64,000 nt of DNA from Bathymodiolus japonicus methanotrophic gill symbiont (lineage in GTDB: Bacteria > Pseudomonadota > Gammaproteobacteria > Methylococcales > Methylomonadaceae): contig NZ_BLYC01000009.1 of assembly GCF_019721995.1 (NCBI RefSeq), positions 62,001 to 126,000 of the forward strand, read 5' to 3'. A model generated the notes under the pieces. It was not told the origin of the DNA, made no database searches, and saw nothing but the letters and a program-made list of their open reading frames with translations. Numbering within the stretch: position 1 is the stretch's first letter; every line of letters begins with the position of its first letter. The position numbers and the translations under genes were made by a program. This document shows, piece by piece, positions 12,376 to 31,547 of the stretch.

Positions 12376-13909
12376 CATCAGTGTTCCCCTATCAATTGAG
12401 ACCGTGAAACTAACCTCGCCACAAGAGAGCTCATAAAGCACTGTAAAGACATTCCTGTTATTATTGCGTTTTGAACTGCCCGAATGGTATACGAGCTGAT
12501 ACGAGATATTCTTGCCTGGAAAAATAATGGATTCACAAAACGATCTCGTTTTTGGGCCTGTTGCTGCCTTATCTCCAGAGCCTCGCTATATTTTTTATCC
12601 GATGGATGAATCAATTCTGGCTGTTGTGTTTTTGAAATCTTTTCAAACACGCGCATTAAATTATAGCTCATTGCAGTCAGGCGCATTTGATTTTCAAGTG
12701 AGCGGGTATTGGAAGACCAAGCTTTAGTTTCCTTGAAATTACTTTTAGTGTTATTGAATGTCTTTTCAATCGTCCATCGCTTGAAATACAGCATGGCAAT
12801 GGTTCCAGGGTTAATAGTCATTGGCAAGGTTGTCACAAACCGGTGAAGTTTTCCGGTTTCTGGATCACGGTAATCCACCACGTTAAATTTGATGCCCTTG
12901 TTTTCGTACACACTGTATGCTTCAACCCCTGTATTGATCTCATGGCGGGAGTCAAAAGGGATAGACTCAACCAGAGTCGCAATTGAATTTTCTTTTAGCA
13001 TTGAAATCATGTAATTAGCATGTCGTTTCTGCCGATCCCACCAGACAAAGTCGGTGACGGCTTTATCGTAGACATAGAGATGTTTCTGAGAGCTGTTATT
13101 TCCCTTGTTTTGCTTTTCAATATGATCTCGTAACACAGGTATTTCTTGATGCCTCTGAGTTCCGTTTGTCACCAGACAAAGAAATCTGAGCAACCCACTT
13201 CTGAGATTCAACGCGTAAATCCCCCCGGCCGCATAAACTTTCCCCTTGCTGTTTTTTTCAGTATGGCAGGCATGATCAATAAAATGTCCATCCGCTGCTT
13301 CTATGGTGTATTCGTCAAGTTCCGGGAATGCTTTAAGATAATCAATGTCTTGCGATAGCAGTGCTTCAGAGTGAAGATGGTAGCTCTGCTGTTCAAATGC
13401 CTCAAGCATACTTGTTCGTCTATGCGACTTCAGTGATTTAAAATACGTTGAGTGAGGAAGCAGCTGGCCATAAATCTGTTCATTGGTTTGGAGGAAATGG
13501 CGACCACTATCGACTACACTGATACAGCGTAATAACCCAAGGCGAATAAAGTCGATATCCTTCAACTCTGGGCATGAACGAGCCCACAAAGGATGACGCT
13601 CTGCTAACAGGGCACGTTCCATACTTTCATTGCAGTGTTGGTGAATATGTTCAGAGAGTGGTAGGTCTTTAAGCATGGGTGATATCCGTTTATGAGGTGA
13701 TTAAAACGGAAATTTTTAGAAAAATTTTCTCGGCAATTGCAAGCTTTATTTGAAATTATTTGTTGTTCTTTTACGGTGCCTACAGAGTGTCTATTTGCTG
13801 TTATAAGTGATTAAAATCAAAAATATGGAAATATTCGAGTGGTGCTACCTTCAGGTAGGTTATAGGCTGCTTTGTTTAGGTACTTCTTCTTTCAATGGGA
13901 ACACTGATG
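12376..13909 (-). mobile_element. IS-B copy 1, complete (1534 bp)
   Basis: Ends CATCAGTGTTCCC and GGGAACACTGATG, flanked by an exact 8-bp duplication GAAAATCA that lies within E copy 3. This copy fixes the size of the family's target duplication. It contains an undamaged transposase. Confidence 0.93.
12378..13676 (-). CDS. IS-B transposase, IS4-like, intact
   Basis: 432 residues starting MLKDLPLSEHIHQHCNESME. Catalytic candidates: TIEAADGHFIDHACH (D at about residue 136), YVYDKAVTDFVWW (about 202) and LYFKRWTIEKTFNNTKSNF (E at about 300, in the YxRxxE-like context of the IS4 family). The coding region spans the whole element and stops close to the end. This and the edge copy at 62944 are the two undamaged IS-B transposases visible. 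Confidence 0.88.
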   Translation of the reverse strand: MLKDLPLSEHIHQHCNESMERALLAERHPLWARSCPELKDIDFIRLGLLRCISVVDSGRHFLQTNEQIYGQLLPHSTYFKSLKSHRRTSMLEAFEQQSYHLHSEALLSQDIDYLKAFPELDEYTIEAADGHFIDHACHTEKNSKGKVYAAGGIYALNLRSGLLRFLCLVTNGTQRHQEIPVLRDHIEKQNKGNNSSQKHLYVYDKAVTDFVWWDRQKRHANYMISMLKENSIATLVESIPFDSRHEINTGVEAYSVYENKGIKFNVVDYRDPETGKLHRFVTTLPMTINPGTIAMLYFKRWTIEKTFNNTKSNFKETKAWSSNTRSLENQMRLTAMSYNLMRVFEKISKTQQPELIHPSDKKYSEALEIRQQQAQKRDRFVNPLFFQARISRISSYTIRAVQNAIITGMSLQCFMSSLVARLVSRSQLIGEH

Positions 13910-23730: not shown

Positions 23731-24771
23731 ATGCAACTAAAATTATTTTTATATTCACTTATTTACCTGTTTTTACTAACTCCAAATGCGGCTAATGCTG
23801 CATTTGATTTTTGCCCTGAAAATCATAATGCCGAAGAGGAAGCGGGGCTTTTCAGCAAGAAATTCCATTAAACGGTATTGTTGAAATAGGAGAAGTACCT
23901 ATTGGACTTTCAGTAATTGATTTTTTTTAACGGCTACGGTAGATATTGATATTCAGCTCTACGATAAGAAAACGGGAGAGAAAACCATTCATTGGTCTAA
24001 TGGAATTTTATCTGGTTCGGGACATCAAAGTACCGTATACCATGGAATTAAAATTGAATGGTCAGGATATAATGGCGATGATACCGGAGTTGGCAATGAA
24101 TTTATAAAGTTATCTGATAACAACGATCCATCAGCCCCAATAAGCCGGGCTTTTATTATGAAAGTTTTTGGTTATCATGCTGGTATTGCAAATGTTAATT
24201 ATTCCTGGGGAGGGACAAATTGTGATACGCCTGCTAGTGGCAATGGTTCTTTTCAGCAGCAAATTGCAAAAGATGCCACCGTAAAGGTTGGTGATATACC
24301 CACAGGGGTCAACAATCTTAAAATTGACATGGATGCACAGTCGGATGTGGATATCCAGCTCTATGATACAGCGACGAGTTCCGCTATTATCGCCTGGCCC
24401 AATGGGCTTTTACATGGCAGTTCAGCAGCATCAATCACTTACCAGGGCATAGACATAGAGTGGTCTGGATATAACGGCGATGGCTCAAATCCAGGCAAAG
24501 AATATATCAAATTTACCGGGGCTACAACCGTCAACCTAACCATGAAAGCCTTTGGTTATCAGTCTGGTGTAGCCTCAGTTAATTATAGCTGGGGAGACAA
24601 TAACGGCGATGACAATGATGATGAAACTGACGACAGTATCGAAGCCAGTTCTAAATCCGAGATACTACATCTCATTAATCAGGCGCGTAAGCAAGGCAGA
24701 AACTGCGGTAGTACACTCTTCCCTGCAGTCGGCCCTCTTACATGGAATAGCCAACCATATCAAGCGGCATT
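23731..24771 (+). pseudogene. Exported protein with two PPC-like repeats and a CAP/SCP domain start, broken
   Basis: The N-terminus is a signal peptide (MQLKLFLYSLIYLFLLTP, then NAANA). Two tandem ~110-residue beta-sandwich repeats follow, each with DVDIQLYD / DIDIQLYD, EWSGYNGD and VFGY-or-AFGYxxGxAxVNYSWG, resembling pre-peptidase C-terminal domains. An Asp-rich linker (GDDNDDETDDS) leads to the opening of a CAP domain, LHLINQARKQGRNCG and LTWNSQPYQAAF. Two frameshifts, each one T short in a T-run (T4 at 23849 and T8 at 23921), break the front. E copy 4 cuts off the CAP domain. Probably a secreted Ca-dependent or adhesive protein before disruption. Confidence 0.7.
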
Positions 24772-25051
24772 CAGGCCGCGCCATGCTACCTCACGAAATT
24801 CCGGGACTCCTGTCGCCATAATTCGTCACCTACGCAGCGGATGGGAGATGCCCTGAACGCCCTGCGTCCGCAACGACTACGCACAAAAGCCGCTTCGTCA
24901 TTACTACCTCACTGGCTGGACGGCTATTCGGAATGCAATTCTTGCTCCTCTCGCGTGCTGCTAGCACACGTCGAATCAGCGAATTGCCCTGTCGCCTATC
25001 AGGGACTAAAAATCACCACTTCGCTAAGCTCCGTTTCCATGATTTTCAGCG
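24772..25051 (+). mobile_element. E repeat copy 4 (280 bp)
   Basis: Type E with start CAGGCCGCGCC (one extra C) and end TTTTCAGCG. Sense orientation in the PPC/CAP gene. Its right flank is a piece of IS-A rather than the rest of the gene, so a deletion joined this repeat to IS-A. Confidence 0.86.
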
Positions 25052-25199
25052 TAAGATGTGTTTCAACTGATGCCATCAGGAAAACATATGATTGGCAGAG
25101 ATTTAGGGCGCTTAGGGCCAACAGCATCATTAAAGTATTGTTCTACTGGGTGAAGGTAAGAGTTTGATGGCAATGGGATGGAAAAACTTGAACATCGAG
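25052..25199 (+). mobile_element. IS-A fragment (last ~148 bp)
   Basis: Encodes the last ~30 codons of the IS-A transposase (MPSGKH-like region) and ends with the terminal repeat CATCGAG. The other end is missing. It follows directly on E copy 4. Confidence 0.85.
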
Positions 25200-25207
25200 T
25201 AATAGAC

Positions 25208-25243
25208 AAAAAATAGCCCGGTTGTAATCAAGCCGGGCTTTTA
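25208..25243. terminator. Bidirectional rho-independent terminator
   Basis: AGCCCGG (25215-25221) pairs with CCGGGCT (25233-25239), with an A-run on the left and TTTT on the right. It lies between the convergent PPC/CAP gene and the HvfA-like gene and would serve both. Confidence 0.85.
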
Positions 25244-25313: not shown

Positions 25314-25892
25314 TTACTCACCCGCTGCTTTTTCAGGTGAAATCATCGCGCCACAACTACCTTCACTGCCTTTCATCATGTCACCGCATGAGCCTTCCAT
25401 GCCCTTTTTCATTTGTCCACCCTGCATCATGCCGCCGCACTTTCCTTCCCCGCATTTTCCTTCCATACCTTTCATGTCCATGCCTTTTTGCATGTCATCA
25501 GATGTGGATTTTTTACCCCAGCCTGTTTTACTGACTGAATAGCCTTTATTTTTTACTTTTTTAGCGGCTGGTTTTCCTTGCATATCGCCACAAGCACCTT
25601 CTTTGCCTTTCATCATTGCGCCACAGGCATTTTCCAGACCTTTTTTCATTTTGCCATTTTCCATCATGCTGCCACATGAACCTTCACCACACGAAGCTTC
25701 TTTTTGCTTGTTCATGTTCATTTTAGAACCCCACTTCATTTCGCCCGCTTTATCCGACTCTGCAAGTTGCATATAGCCACTGCTCAGTTCACTCATGGCA
25801 AATGGGTTGCTCTCTGCATTAACAGCACCTGCCGCGAATGTTGCAGCAACTGCAGAACCGATAGTTGTTAAAGTTTGGGTCGTTTTTTTCAT
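25314..25892 (-). CDS. HvfA/bufferin-like secreted Cys-Gly-Met-rich peptide precursor
   Basis: 192 residues. Signal peptide MKKTTQTLTTIGSAVAATFA (to about residue 26), then NPFAMSELSSGYMQLAESDK, close to the conserved segment of HvfA-type proteins (NPF..ELSSGYM). The rest is Lys/Met/Gly-rich with eight cysteines, every one in a CG pair: SCGEGSCG, ACGAMMKG, ACGDMQG, KCGEGKCGGMM, SCGDMMKG, SCGAM. In known members these EGKCG-type cysteines are modified by an MNIO enzyme (HvfB, DUF692) with HvfC, giving copper-binding residues. No hvfB or hvfC is adjacent. An IS-B sits 43 bp upstream of the start, separating it from sucD. Family assignment is from motif recognition. Confidence 0.75.
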   Translation of the reverse strand: MKKTTQTLTTIGSAVAATFAAGAVNAESNPFAMSELSSGYMQLAESDKAGEMKWGSKMNMNKQKEASCGEGSCGSMMENGKMKKGLENACGAMMKGKEGACGDMQGKPAAKKVKNKGYSVSKTGWGKKSTSDDMQKGMDMKGMEGKCGEGKCGGMMQGGQMKKGMEGSCGDMMKGSEGSCGAMISPEKAAGE

Positions 25893-26557
25893 GTTATCCT
25901 CGATATCTAAATGATTAGTTAATTACATTATTCATCATCAGTGTTCCCCTATCAATTGAGGCCGTGAAACTAACCTCGCCACAAGAGAGCTCATAAAGCA
26001 CTGTAAAGACATTCCTGTTATTATTGCGTTTTGAACTGCTCGAATGGTATACGAGCTGATACGAGATATTCTTGCCTGGAAAAATAATGGATTCACAAAA
26101 CGATCTCGTTTTTGCGCCTGTTGCTGCCTTATCTCCAGAGCCTCGCTATATTTTTTATCCGATGGATGAATCAATTCTGGCTGTTGTGTTTTTGAAATCT
26201 CTTCAAACACGCGCATTAAATTATAGCTCATTGCAGTCAGGCGCATTTGATTTTCAAGTGAGCGGGTATTGGAAGACCGAGCTTTAGTTTCCTTGAAATT
26301 ACTTTTAGTGATATTGAATGTCTTTTCAATCGTCCATCGCTTGAAATACAGCATGGCAATGGTTCCAGGGTTAATAGTCATTGGCAAGGTTGTCACAAAC
26401 CGGTGAAGTTTTCCGGTTTCTGGACCACGGAAATCCACCACGTTAAATTTGATGCCCTTGTTTTCGTACACACTGTATGCTTCAACTCCTGTATTGATCT
26501 CATGCTGGGAGTCAAAAGGGATAGACTCAACCAGAGTCGCAATTGAATTTTCTTTTA

Positions 26558-28089
26558 CTCGATGTTCAAGTTTTTGATATTGAGAAGGTAAAATCAGGTA
26601 TTCTGAAGTTGTTGTAATTTTATCGGTGTAAGCCCATGTTAATGAATGCCCCAGCCACCTTTATCCAAAGCTATATTGACGATTTAAATGATGCGCTCAA
26701 TCAGCTAAAACCCAGAGCCGCTTTGACACGGATTCAAGCCGCTTGGTTGGGCACTTGTTTAACGGGCATACTGCTAATGAACTCTGTTTGCTGGGCTAAG
26801 TTTGAGCGAGCAAGCCTTGGAGATTGCAAAGTAGCCGCATTATCCTGGGGGTTTCGTAAAGCAAGTATACCCTGGGACTGGTTGCTACGGGTGAGTGTGG
26901 TCTTAATTTTAAAACGTTATGGCATTACTGAAGGTGTGTTGGCCTTTGATGAATCAGACCGAGCACGATCTAAGTCTACAAAACGTATTTATAAGGTTTA
27001 CAAGCAGAAACACAAAGGCTCCGGCGGGTATGTTAATGGACAAACGATAGTATTATTGCTGCTAGTTACCTCATCCATTACAGTGCCTGTCGGTTTTTTC
27101 TTTTATATGCCGGATCCAGCCTTAAAGCAGTGGGATAAAGAAGATAAACGGTTGAAAAAGAGCGGTATAGCAAAAAAAGATCGGCCTATTAAGCCTGAAC
27201 GTGACAGTGCCTACCCGACCAAAACAGAGATTGCATTAGGCTTATTAAAAGAGTTTAAAGTTGCGCATAGCCTGATTAAAATTAAAGGCGTACTGGCTTG
27301 ATGCGCTGTATGGTGAAAAAGCCTTTATGGACGAAGCCGCTAAAGAATCTGGAGGCTCGCAGGTGATTAGCCAATTACGTAAAAACCAAAATATTGAATA
27401 TAGAGGTAGAATAAGGTCAGTCGAGAGCTACTTTAATTCGATTAACAAAGGCATTGATCAGATAATACGTGTACGTGGCGGAAAAGAGATTAAAGTGACT
27501 GTCAGCAGTGCACGATTAAAGGTGAGTTCTCACAGTAAAAAACGCTTTGTCATTGCCTTAAAATATGACGGTGAAAACGACTATCGCTATTTAGTGGCGA
27601 CAGACCTGACTTGGCGCACACAAGATATTATTCAAGCCTATACGCTGAGATGGCTGATTAAGGTTTTCTTTGAGGACTGGAAGCTTTATGAAGGATGGGG
27701 GCGTGAGGCCAAACAATTAGATGAAGAGGGATCAAGCCGTGGCCTGATTCTGAGTCTTTTGTTTGACCATTGCCTTCTCCTTCACCCAGAGCAAATAGCC
27801 CACATTGAAAGCAAACTACCTGCGTATACCGTAGGAAGCTTACAGCGCAAGTCTCAAATGGATGTACTGCTTGAGTTCATCACGTCATTGCTAGAGTTTC
27901 CAGATCCTGGTGATAAGCTGAAAGAGTTAGGTGAATTAATAAAGGATGTGTTTCAACTGATGCCATCAGGAAAACATATGATTGGCAGAGATTTAGGGCG
28001 CTTAGAGCCAACACCATCATTAAAGTATTGTTCTGCTGGGTGAAGGTAAGAGTTTGATGGCAATGGGATGGAAAAACTTGAACATCGAG
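26558..28089 (+). mobile_element. IS-A copy 5 inside IS-B, full length
   Basis: Perfect 5-bp duplication TTTTA (26553-26557 and 28090-28094). Intact IS-B copies have a single TTTTA at this point (for example near 44650), which proves the duplication. The transposase is split in two frames (26636-27301 and 27327-28043) by one extra T near 27300. Confidence 0.95.
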
Positions 28090-28342
28090 TTTTAGCATTG
28101 AAATCATGTAATTAGCATGTCGTTTCTGCCGATCCCACCAGATAAAGTCGGTGACGGCTTTATCGTAGACATAGAGATGTTTCTGAGAGCTGTTATTTCC
28201 CTTGTTTTGCTTTTCAATATGATCTCGTAACACAGGTATTTCTTGATGTCTCTGAGTTCCGCTTGTCACCAGACAAAGAAATCTGAGCAAACCACTTCTG
28301 AGATTCAACGCGTAAATCCCCCCGGCCGCATAAACTTTCCCC

Positions 28343-28637
28343 CGCTGAAAATCAGGGAAACGGAGCCTAAGCGAAGTGATGATTTTTAGTCCGCGATAGC
28401 CGTAGGGCCGTTATTTTGTCGGAGTCTGAGCGTTAGCGAAGGTGGAGACAAAATAAAAGGCCATCCGACACGGCGTCAAGTCATTTGGAGCCTATGTTCC
28501 GACCCCTTGTTGGGTCGGGACAAGGTGACGAGGACGAATCGGGGCCGCCGGAGGCATAAGTGGTCGCGTTAAGTTTTTGCTGCTTGCTTGGGCTGGGATG
28601 CCCAAAACAAGCTTTCGCAAAAATAGCGACTCCCCGA
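28343..28637 (-). mobile_element. D repeat copy 4 inside IS-B transposase
   Basis: Inserted between ...CTTTCCCC and TTGCTG.... Intact IS-B copies read CTTTCCCCTTGCTG (for example at 13250), so nothing is duplicated or lost. Sense orientation to the transposase. Confidence 0.93.
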
Positions 28638-29029
28638 TTGCTGTTTTTTTTCAGTATGGCAGGCATGATCAATAAAATGTCCATCCGCTGCTTCTATGGT
28701 GTATTCGTCAAGTTCCTGGAATTCTTTAAGATAATCAATGTCTTGCGATAGCAGTGTTTCAGCGTGAAGATGATAGCTCTGCTGTTCAAATGCCTCAAGC
28801 ATACTTGTTCGTCTATGCGACTTCAGTGATTTAAAATACGTTGAGTGGGGAAGCAGCTGGCCATAAATCTGTTCATTGGTTTGGAGGAAATGACGACCAC
28901 TATCGACTACACTGATACAGCGTAATAACCCAAGGCGAATAAAGTCGATATCCTTCAACTCTGGGCATGAACGAGCCCACAAAGGATGACGCTCTGCTAA
29001 CAGGGCACGTTCCATACTTTCATTGCAGT

Positions 29030-29330
29030 CGCTGCCAGCCATGGAGAGCGAAAGCGAGGGCTGGTAGTCCCCAGAAGGCGTAGGGCCGTTGTTTTGTCGG
29101 AATCGTAGCGCTAGCGTAGGTGTAGACAAAATAAAAGGCATTCCGAAACGCCGTCCAGTCATTTGAGGGAGTGTTACGAAGCCAGCACCGAGTTTACGAT
29201 GGTAATGGCGAAGTGGCACGTACGCAGGACGTCTGGGGCGCCGAAGGCATTAGTGGTCGCGTTAAGTTTTTGCCGCTTGCTTGGGCTGGGATGCCCAAAA
29301 CAAGCTTTCGCAAAAATAGCGACTCCCCGA
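29030..29330 (-). mobile_element. D' repeat (301 bp) inside IS-B transposase
   Basis: Shares the TCGGGGAGTCGC start and left half of D, but the CAGCG end is a different hairpin, CCAGCCC... ATGGCTGG-CAGCG, like that of E'. Inserted between CATTGCAGT and GTTGGTG; intact IS-B reads CATTGCAGTGTTGGTG, so again no duplication. Sense orientation. Confidence 0.92.
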
Positions 29331-29505
29331 GTTGGTGAATATGTTCAGAGAGTGGTAGGTCTTTAAGCATGGGTGATATCCGTTTATGATGTGATTAAAA
29401 TCAAAAAGATGAAAATATTCGAGTGGTGCTACCTTCAGGTAGGTTATAGGCTGCTTTGTTTAGGTACTTCTTCTTTCAATGGGAACACTGATGTTATTTA
29501 TACTG

Positions 29506-30381
29506 TTAGCCATTTGAAATAAGTTCTTTCATGGCTATGCCCATTTTTGAAGGTGAATTAACCACCTCAACTCCTGCCGCTTTTAATGCAGAAACTTTAC
29601 CTTCTGCTGTTCCCTTGCCGCCGGTGACGATAGCGCCTGCATGTCCCATGCGTTTGCCTGCTGGCGCGGTTAAGCCGGTAATATAGGCTACCACAGGCTT
29701 AGTCACATGATTTTTAATATATTCGGCCGCTTCTTCCTCTTCGCCACCGCCAATTTCACCGACCATAATAATACCCTGAGTCGAGTCATCTGCCTGGAAG
29801 CGGCTGATTACATCAATAAAATTCATGCCGTGGATAGGATCGCCGCCGATACCGACACAGGTACTTTGCCCCAGGCCTTGCTGGGTAGTCTGATGCACAG
29901 CTTCGTAAGTTAATGTTCCGGAGCGGGAGACGATGCCGATAGATCCGGGCAGATGTATACTGCCGGGCATAATACCTATTTTGCAGGCTTCAGGGGTGAT
30001 AATACCTGGGCAGTTAGGGCCGATGAGCAACGCATCGCTTGTTGCCATTGCCGCTTTGACCCGCAACATTTGTAATACTGGAATGCCTTCGGTAATGCAG
30101 ATGATTAATTTAATGTCTGCATCTACCGCTTCTAAAATAGCATCCGCAGCAAAAAATGGCGGTACATAAATAACGCTGGCATCAGGCTTAGTGATTGCAT
30201 AGGCTTGTTGTACTGTATCAAATACTGGTAAGCCTAAATGCTCGGAACCACCTCGCCCTGGAGTCACGCCTGCAACCAATTTGGTCCCATAGTTTAAAGC
30301 ATGCTGCGAGTGAAAGGTGCCTTGCTTGCCGGTAAAGCCCTGGCAAATAACTTTGGTGTGCTCGTCAATCAGAATACTCAT
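29506..30381 (-). CDS. sucD: Succinate-CoA ligase (ADP-forming) alpha subunit
   Basis: 291 residues. [12 protein letters not shown] CoA-binding motif near residue 16, [10 protein letters not shown] at about 120, and [10 protein letters not shown] (about 248), which carries the phospho-histidine. It interconverts succinyl-CoA and succinate in the TCA cycle with nucleotide phosphorylation. Stop/start overlap with sucC upstream (4 bp). A malate-CoA ligase (mtkB) of serine-cycle methylotrophs is homologous and cannot be excluded on sequence reading alone. Confidence 0.9.
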
Positions 30382-31547
30382 AAACGTGCTCCTGCAAGGC
30401 TGACCGCTTGTTCGGCTCCATGATCCAGATTATCCGCAGAAAATATATTTGGCGCGGCCCCCTGCAATAGCAAACGTCCTTCTTCTGCGTGGGTTCCTTC
30501 CAGCCGGACTATAACCGGCAAGTTAGTTTTAATTTGCTGTAACGCGCCAAGAATACCCTGGGCAATAACATCACAATGCACGATACCACCAAATATATTC
30601 ACCAGTACCGCCTGTACATTTTTATCCGAGACAATCAGCTTAAATGCCTCGGTAACTTTTTCTATGTTAGTCCCACCACCGACATCCAGGAAATTGGCAG
30701 GTGTCCCACCTTTAAGCTTTACTAGGTCCATGGTAGCCATCGCAAGACCTGCGCCGTTAACCATGCAGCCTATATTGCCGTCCAGAGTAATATAGCTAAG
30801 GTCAAATTGCTTTGCCTTGTTTTCTTTTTCATCCTCTTGAGTGGTGTCGCGTAATGCCGTGATGTCCTTATGCAAGGCCAGTGCGTTATCATCGAAATTG
30901 ATTTTAGCATCTAGGGCAATAAGGCTGTCGTCTGCTATTTCAACTAAGGGATTGATCTCTATTTGACTAGCATCTTTATCCAGCAACAGCCTTAACATAC
31001 CGGACATAATGCTGTGCAGAGCTTTTATTTGTAAGCCTTGCAAGGAAAGTGCAAAGGCTATTTGCCTGCACTGATAAGGCTGCAGACCAGCAGCCGGATT
31101 AATAAATACGCTGATGATTTTTTCCGGATTTTGCTCGGCAACGGCTTCGATATCCATTCCACCTGATGCAGAGGCAATAAAACAGAGCTTTTCCTTTTGC
31201 CGGTCGACTAGTAAACTAAGGTAAAATTCACGTTTAATGTCCGAGGTTTTCTCTACTAACACTGAATTAATGGGCAGACCTTCCGTGCCAGTTTGCTTGG
31301 TTACTAGACGTTGGCCCAGCATTGCTGCGGTTAATTCGCTTGCCGCTACCGCCGTTTGCGCAATTTTCACACCTCCTACTTTGCCACGCCCACCGGCATG
31401 CACCTGCGCTTTAATTGCCCAGCTATCGCCGGCTAAAGTTTGTGCAGCAGTAGATGCCGCATCGGCAGTCGTCACGACAATACTGTCGGGAACAGGAATC
31501 AGGTAGTCTCTAAATAGCTGCTTAGCCTGAAATTCATGAATATTCAT
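30378..31547 (-). CDS. sucC: Succinate-CoA ligase (ADP-forming) beta subunit
   Basis: 389 residues, the usual length. ATP-grasp domain with [19 protein letters not shown] at about residue 43, the phosphate-binding region IEINPLVEI at about 196, and [15 protein letters not shown] at the C-terminal CoA-ligase domain. It forms a heterotetramer with SucD; the two genes overlap. Intact, divergent from hemW. Confidence 0.9.

Follow-up and report, generated by a model that had tools for sequence, protein, structure and literature searches.

A Met-rich HvfA-like precursor encoded apart from hvfBC in the methanotrophic gill symbiont of Bathymodiolus japonicus

The hvfA-like gene, its neighbours and its product

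The window (the whole 64,000-nucleotide stretch of DNA that was analysed) contains an hvfA-like gene that lies behind the succinate-CoA ligase genes sucC and sucD and is separated from them by an insertion sequence (IS). The following features were recorded at this locus.

25215–25239, both strands: terminator-like hairpin following hvfA (2 found against 0.1 expected in shuffles)
25314–25892, minus strand: hvfA-like precursor gene, 192 aa (ORF listing, NCBIfam, motif count and alignment)
25893–25935, minus strand: native leader, the 43 bp before the hvfA ATG, with a GAGG ribosome-binding-like site (by eye)
25927–25955, minus strand: promoter-like hybrid matching at 10 of 12 positions, with TTGATA in the IS end and, after a 17-nt spacer, AATAAT in the flank
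25936–29493, strand not assigned: IS insertion separating hvfA from sucD, with a further IS nested inside
29506–30381, minus strand: sucD (succinate-CoA ligase alpha), upstream of the IS
30378–31547, minus strand: sucC (succinate-CoA ligase beta), upstream member of the sucCD–hvfA array

A first-pass annotation of the locus had raised the possibility that the host is a methanotroph. The genome searched (4.97 Mb, 109 contigs, 98.9% complete) encodes the AMO/pMMO subunit A family PF02461 (423.8 bits, cut-off 27.5), and among named relatives the best are MAGs of Methyloprofundus and methanotrophic symbionts of mussels, which confirms that suggestion; we take the genus of the host to be Methyloprofundus.

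The hvfA reading frame is intact, starts with ATG and encodes an apparent signal peptide, followed by NPFAMSELSSGYMQLAE and by two Cys-rich core halves of four Cys each with the spacer KNKGYSVSKTGWGKK between them; a NPFAMSELSSGYM segment also forms part of the precursor. The Sec-type signal peptide was judged by eye, and the N-terminus is kept in a 16-row alignment. All eight Cys residues lie in E-x-x-C-G five-mers, each followed by Gly (in order EASCG, EGSCG, ENACG, EGACG, EGKCG, EGKCG, EGSCG and EGSCG). Position 1 of these motifs is always Glu and position 3 is K, S or A, the Lys of EGKCG being missing from six of the eight. The apparent signal peptide, the eight Cys-Gly cysteines and the EGKCG-like repeats were found as first described. 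Counted from NPF onward, 22 of 164 residues are Met. Residue 54 is Trp (codon TGG, window 25731–25733), at a site where 14 of 16 long proteins of the genus have the Cys of an EMxCG motif.

The annotation had placed the product in the HvfA/bufferin group and proposed a profile search with HvfA models. Membership of the HvfA family is borne out by the NCBIfam HvfA-family domain NF050137 ('KCGExKCG_twice'), which matches two stretches of the precursor at 31.4 bits (cut-off 19.5). The second model, the HvfA equivalog NF050188, failed at 22 bits against a cut-off of 95, so that we do not apply the narrow name 'HvfA equivalog' to the precursor. This failure says little, since the cut-off is very narrow: it is reached in none of 274 class genomes searched, 72 of which have some match. 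A Pfam search of the protein returned no match, and features of Bufferin 1 or Bufferin 2 were not seen, there being no DUF2282 by Pfam and no Cys-Lys pair in the sequence. An AlphaFold model gave no confident fold (mean pLDDT 44.9, pTM 0.17). The dN/dS of the long hvfA is 0.08–0.13 in seven pairs, a rough value because dS is 0.8–1.3 in the six pairs that involve the B. japonicus symbiont; the gene is under purifying selection. Since it passes NF050137, has long relatives in 16 of 18 genomes of the genus and shows this dN/dS, the reading frame is more than a chance one.

The upstream insertion sequence

The IS at 25936–29493 carries a DDE transposase fragment (PF01609 over the cut-off, PF13701 below it), has 13-bp inverted ends (CATCAGTGTTCCC / GGGAACACTGATG) and is flanked by TTATTCAT / TTATTTAT, in which seven of eight bases are alike. 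At 12376–13909 the window contains another copy of the IS, whose 8-base flank duplication, GAAAATCA, is perfect. As first described, the insert leaves 43 bp before the hvfA ATG. Together with the 12 bp to the sucD stop, this gives an original sucD–hvfA spacing of about 47 bp; the spacing in genus genome G016 is similar, at 44 bp. A piece of the nested IS also lies downstream of hvfA (window 25055–25200, 98% to 27945–28090), so that IS material is found on both sides of the gene.

We considered the insertion as the cause of the orphan state of hvfA and rejected it, because relatives without the IS show the same separation from the maturation genes. The effect of the IS is to separate hvfA from sucD only.

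A single hvfBC pair and a second precursor elsewhere in the genome

The first-pass annotation had described hvfA as an orphan without its maturation enzymes and proposed a genome search for DUF692 and DUF2063 genes. HvfB and HvfC are indeed absent next door, but the search found one of each, so that the enzymes are not missing genome-wide. Exactly one multinuclear iron-dependent oxidase (MNIO) match was obtained in the whole genome, at 60429–61211 of contig C11; hvfA itself lies on contig C9. The curated model NF003818 identifies it as HvfB (438 bits, cut-off 360), while it falls below the models for BufB (MNIO_BufB, 283.6 bits, cut-off 310) and MbnB (58 bits, cut-off 325). As the only MNIO of the genome is of the HvfB type, no MbnB-type methanobactin pathway was found. 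HvfC follows (281.9 bits, cut-off 142; Pfam DUF2063). Beside this hvfBC pair lie a gene with a FolB domain and a divergent DAHP synthase gene (aroF/G/H family, TIGR00034; called aroG here), and no precursor is found among the listed ORFs of that locus. HvfB carries an RR pair (R16 R17) and ERDF (D251 F252), positions mapped by motif; in an HvfB alignment, RR is present in 52 of 52 rows and ERDF in 49 of 52.

A second HvfA-like precursor of 120 aa is encoded at position 155214 of contig C4, between mgtE and mraZ, and carries NF050137 at 33.8 bits. The description of the long gene as an orphan stands in that it is unlinked from hvfBC, but it is not the only precursor, and its separation is a trait of the genus.

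Genes for HvfX, a DoxX-like protein, are common in HvfA / Buf_EGKCG clusters. No HvfX passes the cut-off in this genome: the best NF050144 score is 26.2 bits (cut-off 80) and comes from its one general DoxX gene (C6:37548). HvfX is over the cut-off in 12 of 18 genomes of the genus and below it in the B. japonicus symbiont, G006 and G016, as well as in the less complete G005, G010 and G012; some members of the genus may have lost HvfX.

Gene order within the genus

Long hvfA genes were found in 16 of the 18 genomes, which are partly fragmented; the two in which none was detected (G010 and G013) are 63% and 90% complete. Of the 15 other genomes that have the long gene, 12 show sucC, sucD and hvfA in a row, at a sucD–hvfA spacing of 44–265 bp, in agreement with the earlier suggestion that an original link to sucD has been changed here. 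In the three exceptions, the genes are about 189 kb apart on the same contig (G008) or on different contigs (G002), or sucD was not found (G012). The short mgtE-linked precursor is present in 16 of 18 genomes, no copy having been detected in G005 and G007.

An MNIO was found in 17 of the 18 genomes (not detected in G013), and all 16 with the long hvfA also have HvfB. The main hvfB adjoins aroG in 12 of the 17 MNIO-bearing genomes, and 15 of the 17 showed no HvfA-like ORF of 60 aa or longer adjacent to this hvfB. Separation of hvfA from hvfBC is the usual state in the genus. The two genomes with a precursor by hvfB are G003, where it is intact but different, and G015, where only a frameshifted remnant with a single Cys-Gly remains (L106:4822–5193). 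G001 and G009 contain an additional hvfA-hvfB-hvfC set; its HvfB belongs to a different clade, and an HvfX/DoxX-type gene adjoins the set.

G003 was considered as the holder of an ancestral linked hvfA and rejected: its hvfB-adjacent precursor is without the CGxMMKG module, its N-terminus looks lipoprotein-like by eye (the best match of that type in G003), and its HvfB clade nests among aroG-linked HvfB with moderate support (91/85). The intact precursor of G003, the remnant of G015 and its absence by hvfB in G017 form a candidate decay series, a possible one that we do not use as proof.

Several species of the genus also have short HvfA-like precursors whose signal looks like a lipobox (LTTGC, LTAGC or FTSGC by eye); none of this type was found in the B. 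japonicus symbiont genome. They are possibly membrane-anchored, judging from these motifs, and lie at the following positions.

L126, 6885–7172: lipobox-like short precursor
L127, 6377–6709: lipobox-like short precursor
L128, 4053–4319: lipobox-like short precursor
L129, 7445–7732: lipobox-like short precursor

Gene order outside the genus and descent of HvfB

Among the 31 other genomes of the family, 30 contain an MNIO, and in 29 of these hvfB is immediately preceded, on the same strand, by an hvfA-like gene, with gaps of up to 0.6 kb; G030 is the sole exception. In other families of the order, an HvfA-like match was obtained in 21 of 32 genomes, every one of them next to an MNIO by coordinates, and all 20 fetched loci have the order hvfA-hvfB-hvfC. 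No HvfA-like ORF was found downstream of sucD in 11 genomes from outside the genus (1.5 kb each; G062, G049 and G056 left out). In an HvfB tree, for which the tree tool warned of unsettled bootstrap and long branches, the 17 HvfB of the genus form one clade (98/99) inside the hvfA-linked HvfB of the family. Given this nesting and the linkage outside the genus, the most likely history is vertical descent of HvfB, with the precursor moving out of the operon in this genus.

One family genome, G023 (98% complete), has an HvfA-like match, and no MNIO was found in it; its precursor may be unmodified, judging from gene content.

Expression signals upstream of hvfA

The promoter-like hybrid at the IS end is within chance (1 found, 0.6 expected in shuffles). 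A different motif, TTGCAW-N17-TANAA, occurs 67–89 bp upstream of hvfA in 9 of 16 genomes of the genus (G007 with a downstream start) and in 36 of 32,000 plain base shuffles, a control that overstates independence since the nine genomes are related. It is absent from the B. japonicus symbiont, G016 and five other genomes of the genus. A promoter motif common to hvfA and hvfBC was not found, the hvfA motif occurring in none of 14 hvfB upstream regions. Before the insertion, hvfA was probably read through from sucCD; in the B. japonicus symbiont it may now be poorly expressed.

Core-motif drift and methionine content

Position 3 of the core motif is K in 46 of 166 Cys-Gly sites of the long type of the genus vs 214 of 227 in 28 other gammaproteobacterial HvfA, whose Lys content is biased upward because they were fetched with the EGKCG-trained NF050188 (30 loci minus L180 and L200, from which no ORF was recovered). 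Precursors still adjoining hvfB have K at 70 of 206 sites. The drift does not follow unlinking, since the same motifs, and the Met-rich module described below, are found in precursors still by hvfB.

Mean Met content, counted from the PF motif onward (from residue 29 where there is no PF motif), is 16.3% in the long type of the genus (16 proteins), 11.1% in precursors of the family (31 rows from 30 genomes, G030 giving two), 9.5% in the mgtE type (16), 5.3% in precursors of the order's other families (20; retrieved with the window protein as query, hence biased the opposite way to the EGKCG-trained set) and 4.6% in the other gammaproteobacterial HvfA (28). A class-wide MNIO control of 30 loci yielded mostly Cys-Lys precursors by eye, none HvfA-like, and was unusable for the Met comparison. 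The module CGxMMKGxxGxCG is present in 16 of 16 long proteins of the genus and 27 of 31 family precursors (43 of 47 together), and in none of the 16 mgtE-type precursors, the 20 from other families of the order or the 28 other gammaproteobacterial HvfA. All 16 long proteins of the genus have the PF...GY segment, as do 30 of the 31 family precursors. (MKGMGD)n-like tails precede the last Cys-Gly in several congeners, the B. japonicus symbiont and G016 being without them.

Comparison with known systems

HvfA of Haemophilus influenzae, or oxazolin, has three AEGKCGEGKCG motifs and is encoded in an operon with hvfB, hvfC and hvfX; oxidation is ascribed to HvfB together with HvfC, and HvfX is called uncharacterized (PMC13419390). 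The window precursor resembles it in its apparent signal peptide, its Cys-Gly core motifs and the presence in the genome of HvfB and HvfC of the same families, and differs in its two split core halves, its K to S/A drift, its Met richness, its unlinked gene, the failure of NF050188 and the lack of a detected HvfX. The Buf_EGKCG/oxazolin family comprises signal-peptide precursors of 31–506 aa with repeated EGKCG (PMC12452194). Our precursor falls outside both types described there, 17-residue repeats and an EF-hand fusion.

Oxazolin and fontiphorin are periplasmic 5-thiooxazole copper peptides (PMC13419390, PMC13097082). FonBC, the fontiphorin (FonA) enzyme pair, accepts only G or A after Cys, leaves substrates with a charged residue there unprocessed and tolerates A, R or T at position 3 (PMC13097082). 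Our Cys-Gly dyads lie within this tolerance, as in the captophorin class; the Ser that the window precursor has at position 3 is not one of the named variants. RR and D-F residues have been assigned to Lys-Cys MNIOs (PMC13097082), and our HvfB has them. As the Cys-Gly dyads of the window precursor fit the tolerance of FonBC and HvfB carries these residues, the product is, by analogy, likely a periplasmic 5-thiooxazole copper peptide; modification, known for fontiphorin, is here a prediction. A two-repeat FonBC substrate loses 8 Da (PMC13097082), from which we infer, again by analogy, a mass loss of about 4 Da per modified Cys. Methanobactin (MbnABC) likewise belongs to the class of MNIO-made copper peptides in methanotrophs, but the genome has no MbnB.

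Interpretation

We favour, at a probability of about 0.68, the reading that the gene encodes an HvfA/Buf_EGKCG (captophorin) precursor, a Met-rich variant with a relaxed core, which would be modified in trans by the distant HvfBC to a copper-binding thiooxazole peptide. After synthesis in the cytoplasm, the precursor would bind to HvfC, a partner protein that has a RiPP recognition element; HvfB would then oxidize some or all of the eight E-x-x-C-G cysteines to 5-thiooxazoles, and the peptide would be exported by Sec to the periplasm, there to bind Cu(I) and buffer excess copper. HvfB and HvfC would act from their locus beside aroG, probably also serving the mgtE-linked precursor. The separation is older than the species, the precursor having left the hvfBC operon within the genus, mostly to a place behind sucCD, and other genera having kept hvfA-hvfB-hvfC together. 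The later IS only cut the sucCD link, and may have replaced sucCD read-through by weak transcription from its end. This reading builds on what is observed of the gene, its family domain in two stretches, the single HvfBC pair and its type with RR and ERDF, the Cys-Gly dyads, the linkage elsewhere, the HvfB clade and the purifying selection; modification and its chemistry, export, copper binding and expression before and after the insertion are predicted from these. Against it count the NF050188 score, the six motifs without Lys, the undetected HvfX, the lack of a shared promoter motif, the chance that unlinked precursors stay unmodified, and weak expression after the insertion, which may apply.

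Drift from EGKCG (against a Lys-biased comparison set), the high mean Met content of the long type, the undetected HvfX and the lack of a shared promoter motif would all suit a peptide that is no longer an HvfBC substrate and acts unmodified as a periplasmic Cys/Met-rich, metallothionein-like copper binder, only the precursor on C4 being modified. We consider this unlikely, since drifted motifs also occur in hvfB-adjacent precursors and the Met-rich module in most family precursors, all eight Cys keep both the dyad and the E-x-x-C-G frame, and the PF...GY segment is maintained almost throughout. It is less probable still that hvfA is a dying relic in the B. japonicus symbiont, its promoter cut off by the IS and the gene not expressed. 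The IS in front, the IS piece behind, the Trp in place of a Cys and the absence of the TTGCAW motif can be read that way, but the frame is intact, the start and the ribosome-binding-like site are kept, G016 lacks the motif with no IS there, and the IS end offers a promoter-like sequence, itself within chance; the low dN/dS also speaks against decay, though mostly reflecting the time before the insertion. An unrelated low-complexity secreted protein merely resembling HvfA would fit the lack of a Pfam match and the low-confidence fold, yet is highly improbable and already contradicted by the HvfA-family domain above its cut-off and by similarity to precursors that adjoin hvfB in other genera; a best match to such a family, which the first-pass annotation had named as speaking against its own assignment, was not what we found.

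Extending the favoured reading of modification in trans, we tentatively suggest, at somewhat under even odds, a stable dispersed system throughout the genus, in which one HvfBC pair would mature at least two unlinked precursors of different shape: the Met-rich type behind sucCD, a mixed-ligand peptide whose thiooxazoles and dense Met clusters would jointly bind Cu(I); the short type between mgtE and mraZ; and, in some species, the lipoprotein-like type. Methane oxidation by methane/ammonia monooxygenase depends on copper, and the role of such a system could be copper supply or buffering for it. Copper protection has been favoured over uptake as the function (PMC12452194). For bufferin-like genes, precursors unlinked from an MNIO, and several precursors with one MNIO and partner pair, have already been described, and it was left open whether unlinked precursors are modified by an enzyme encoded elsewhere, stay unmodified or are otherwise used (PMC12452194). 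The arrangement reported here is thus not new in kind; it bears on whether one pair can serve several unlinked precursors. In this genome a single HvfBC pair coexists with two precursors, each at a separate locus of its own, and the relatives examined largely follow this arrangement, which makes the genus a clean test case provided by nature. The Met-rich variant is new, in that the repeat types described (PMC12452194) do not cover it, and well conserved. Among the matches listed from the openly licensed literature, no title or abstract start dealt with HvfA in Methyloprofundus or with Met-rich HvfA.

Elsewhere in the window, ORF 24158–24856 had no Pfam match; the region 23731–24856 looks by eye like a broken secreted-protein gene, in which the stretch FGYxxGxAxVNYSWG is repeated twice.
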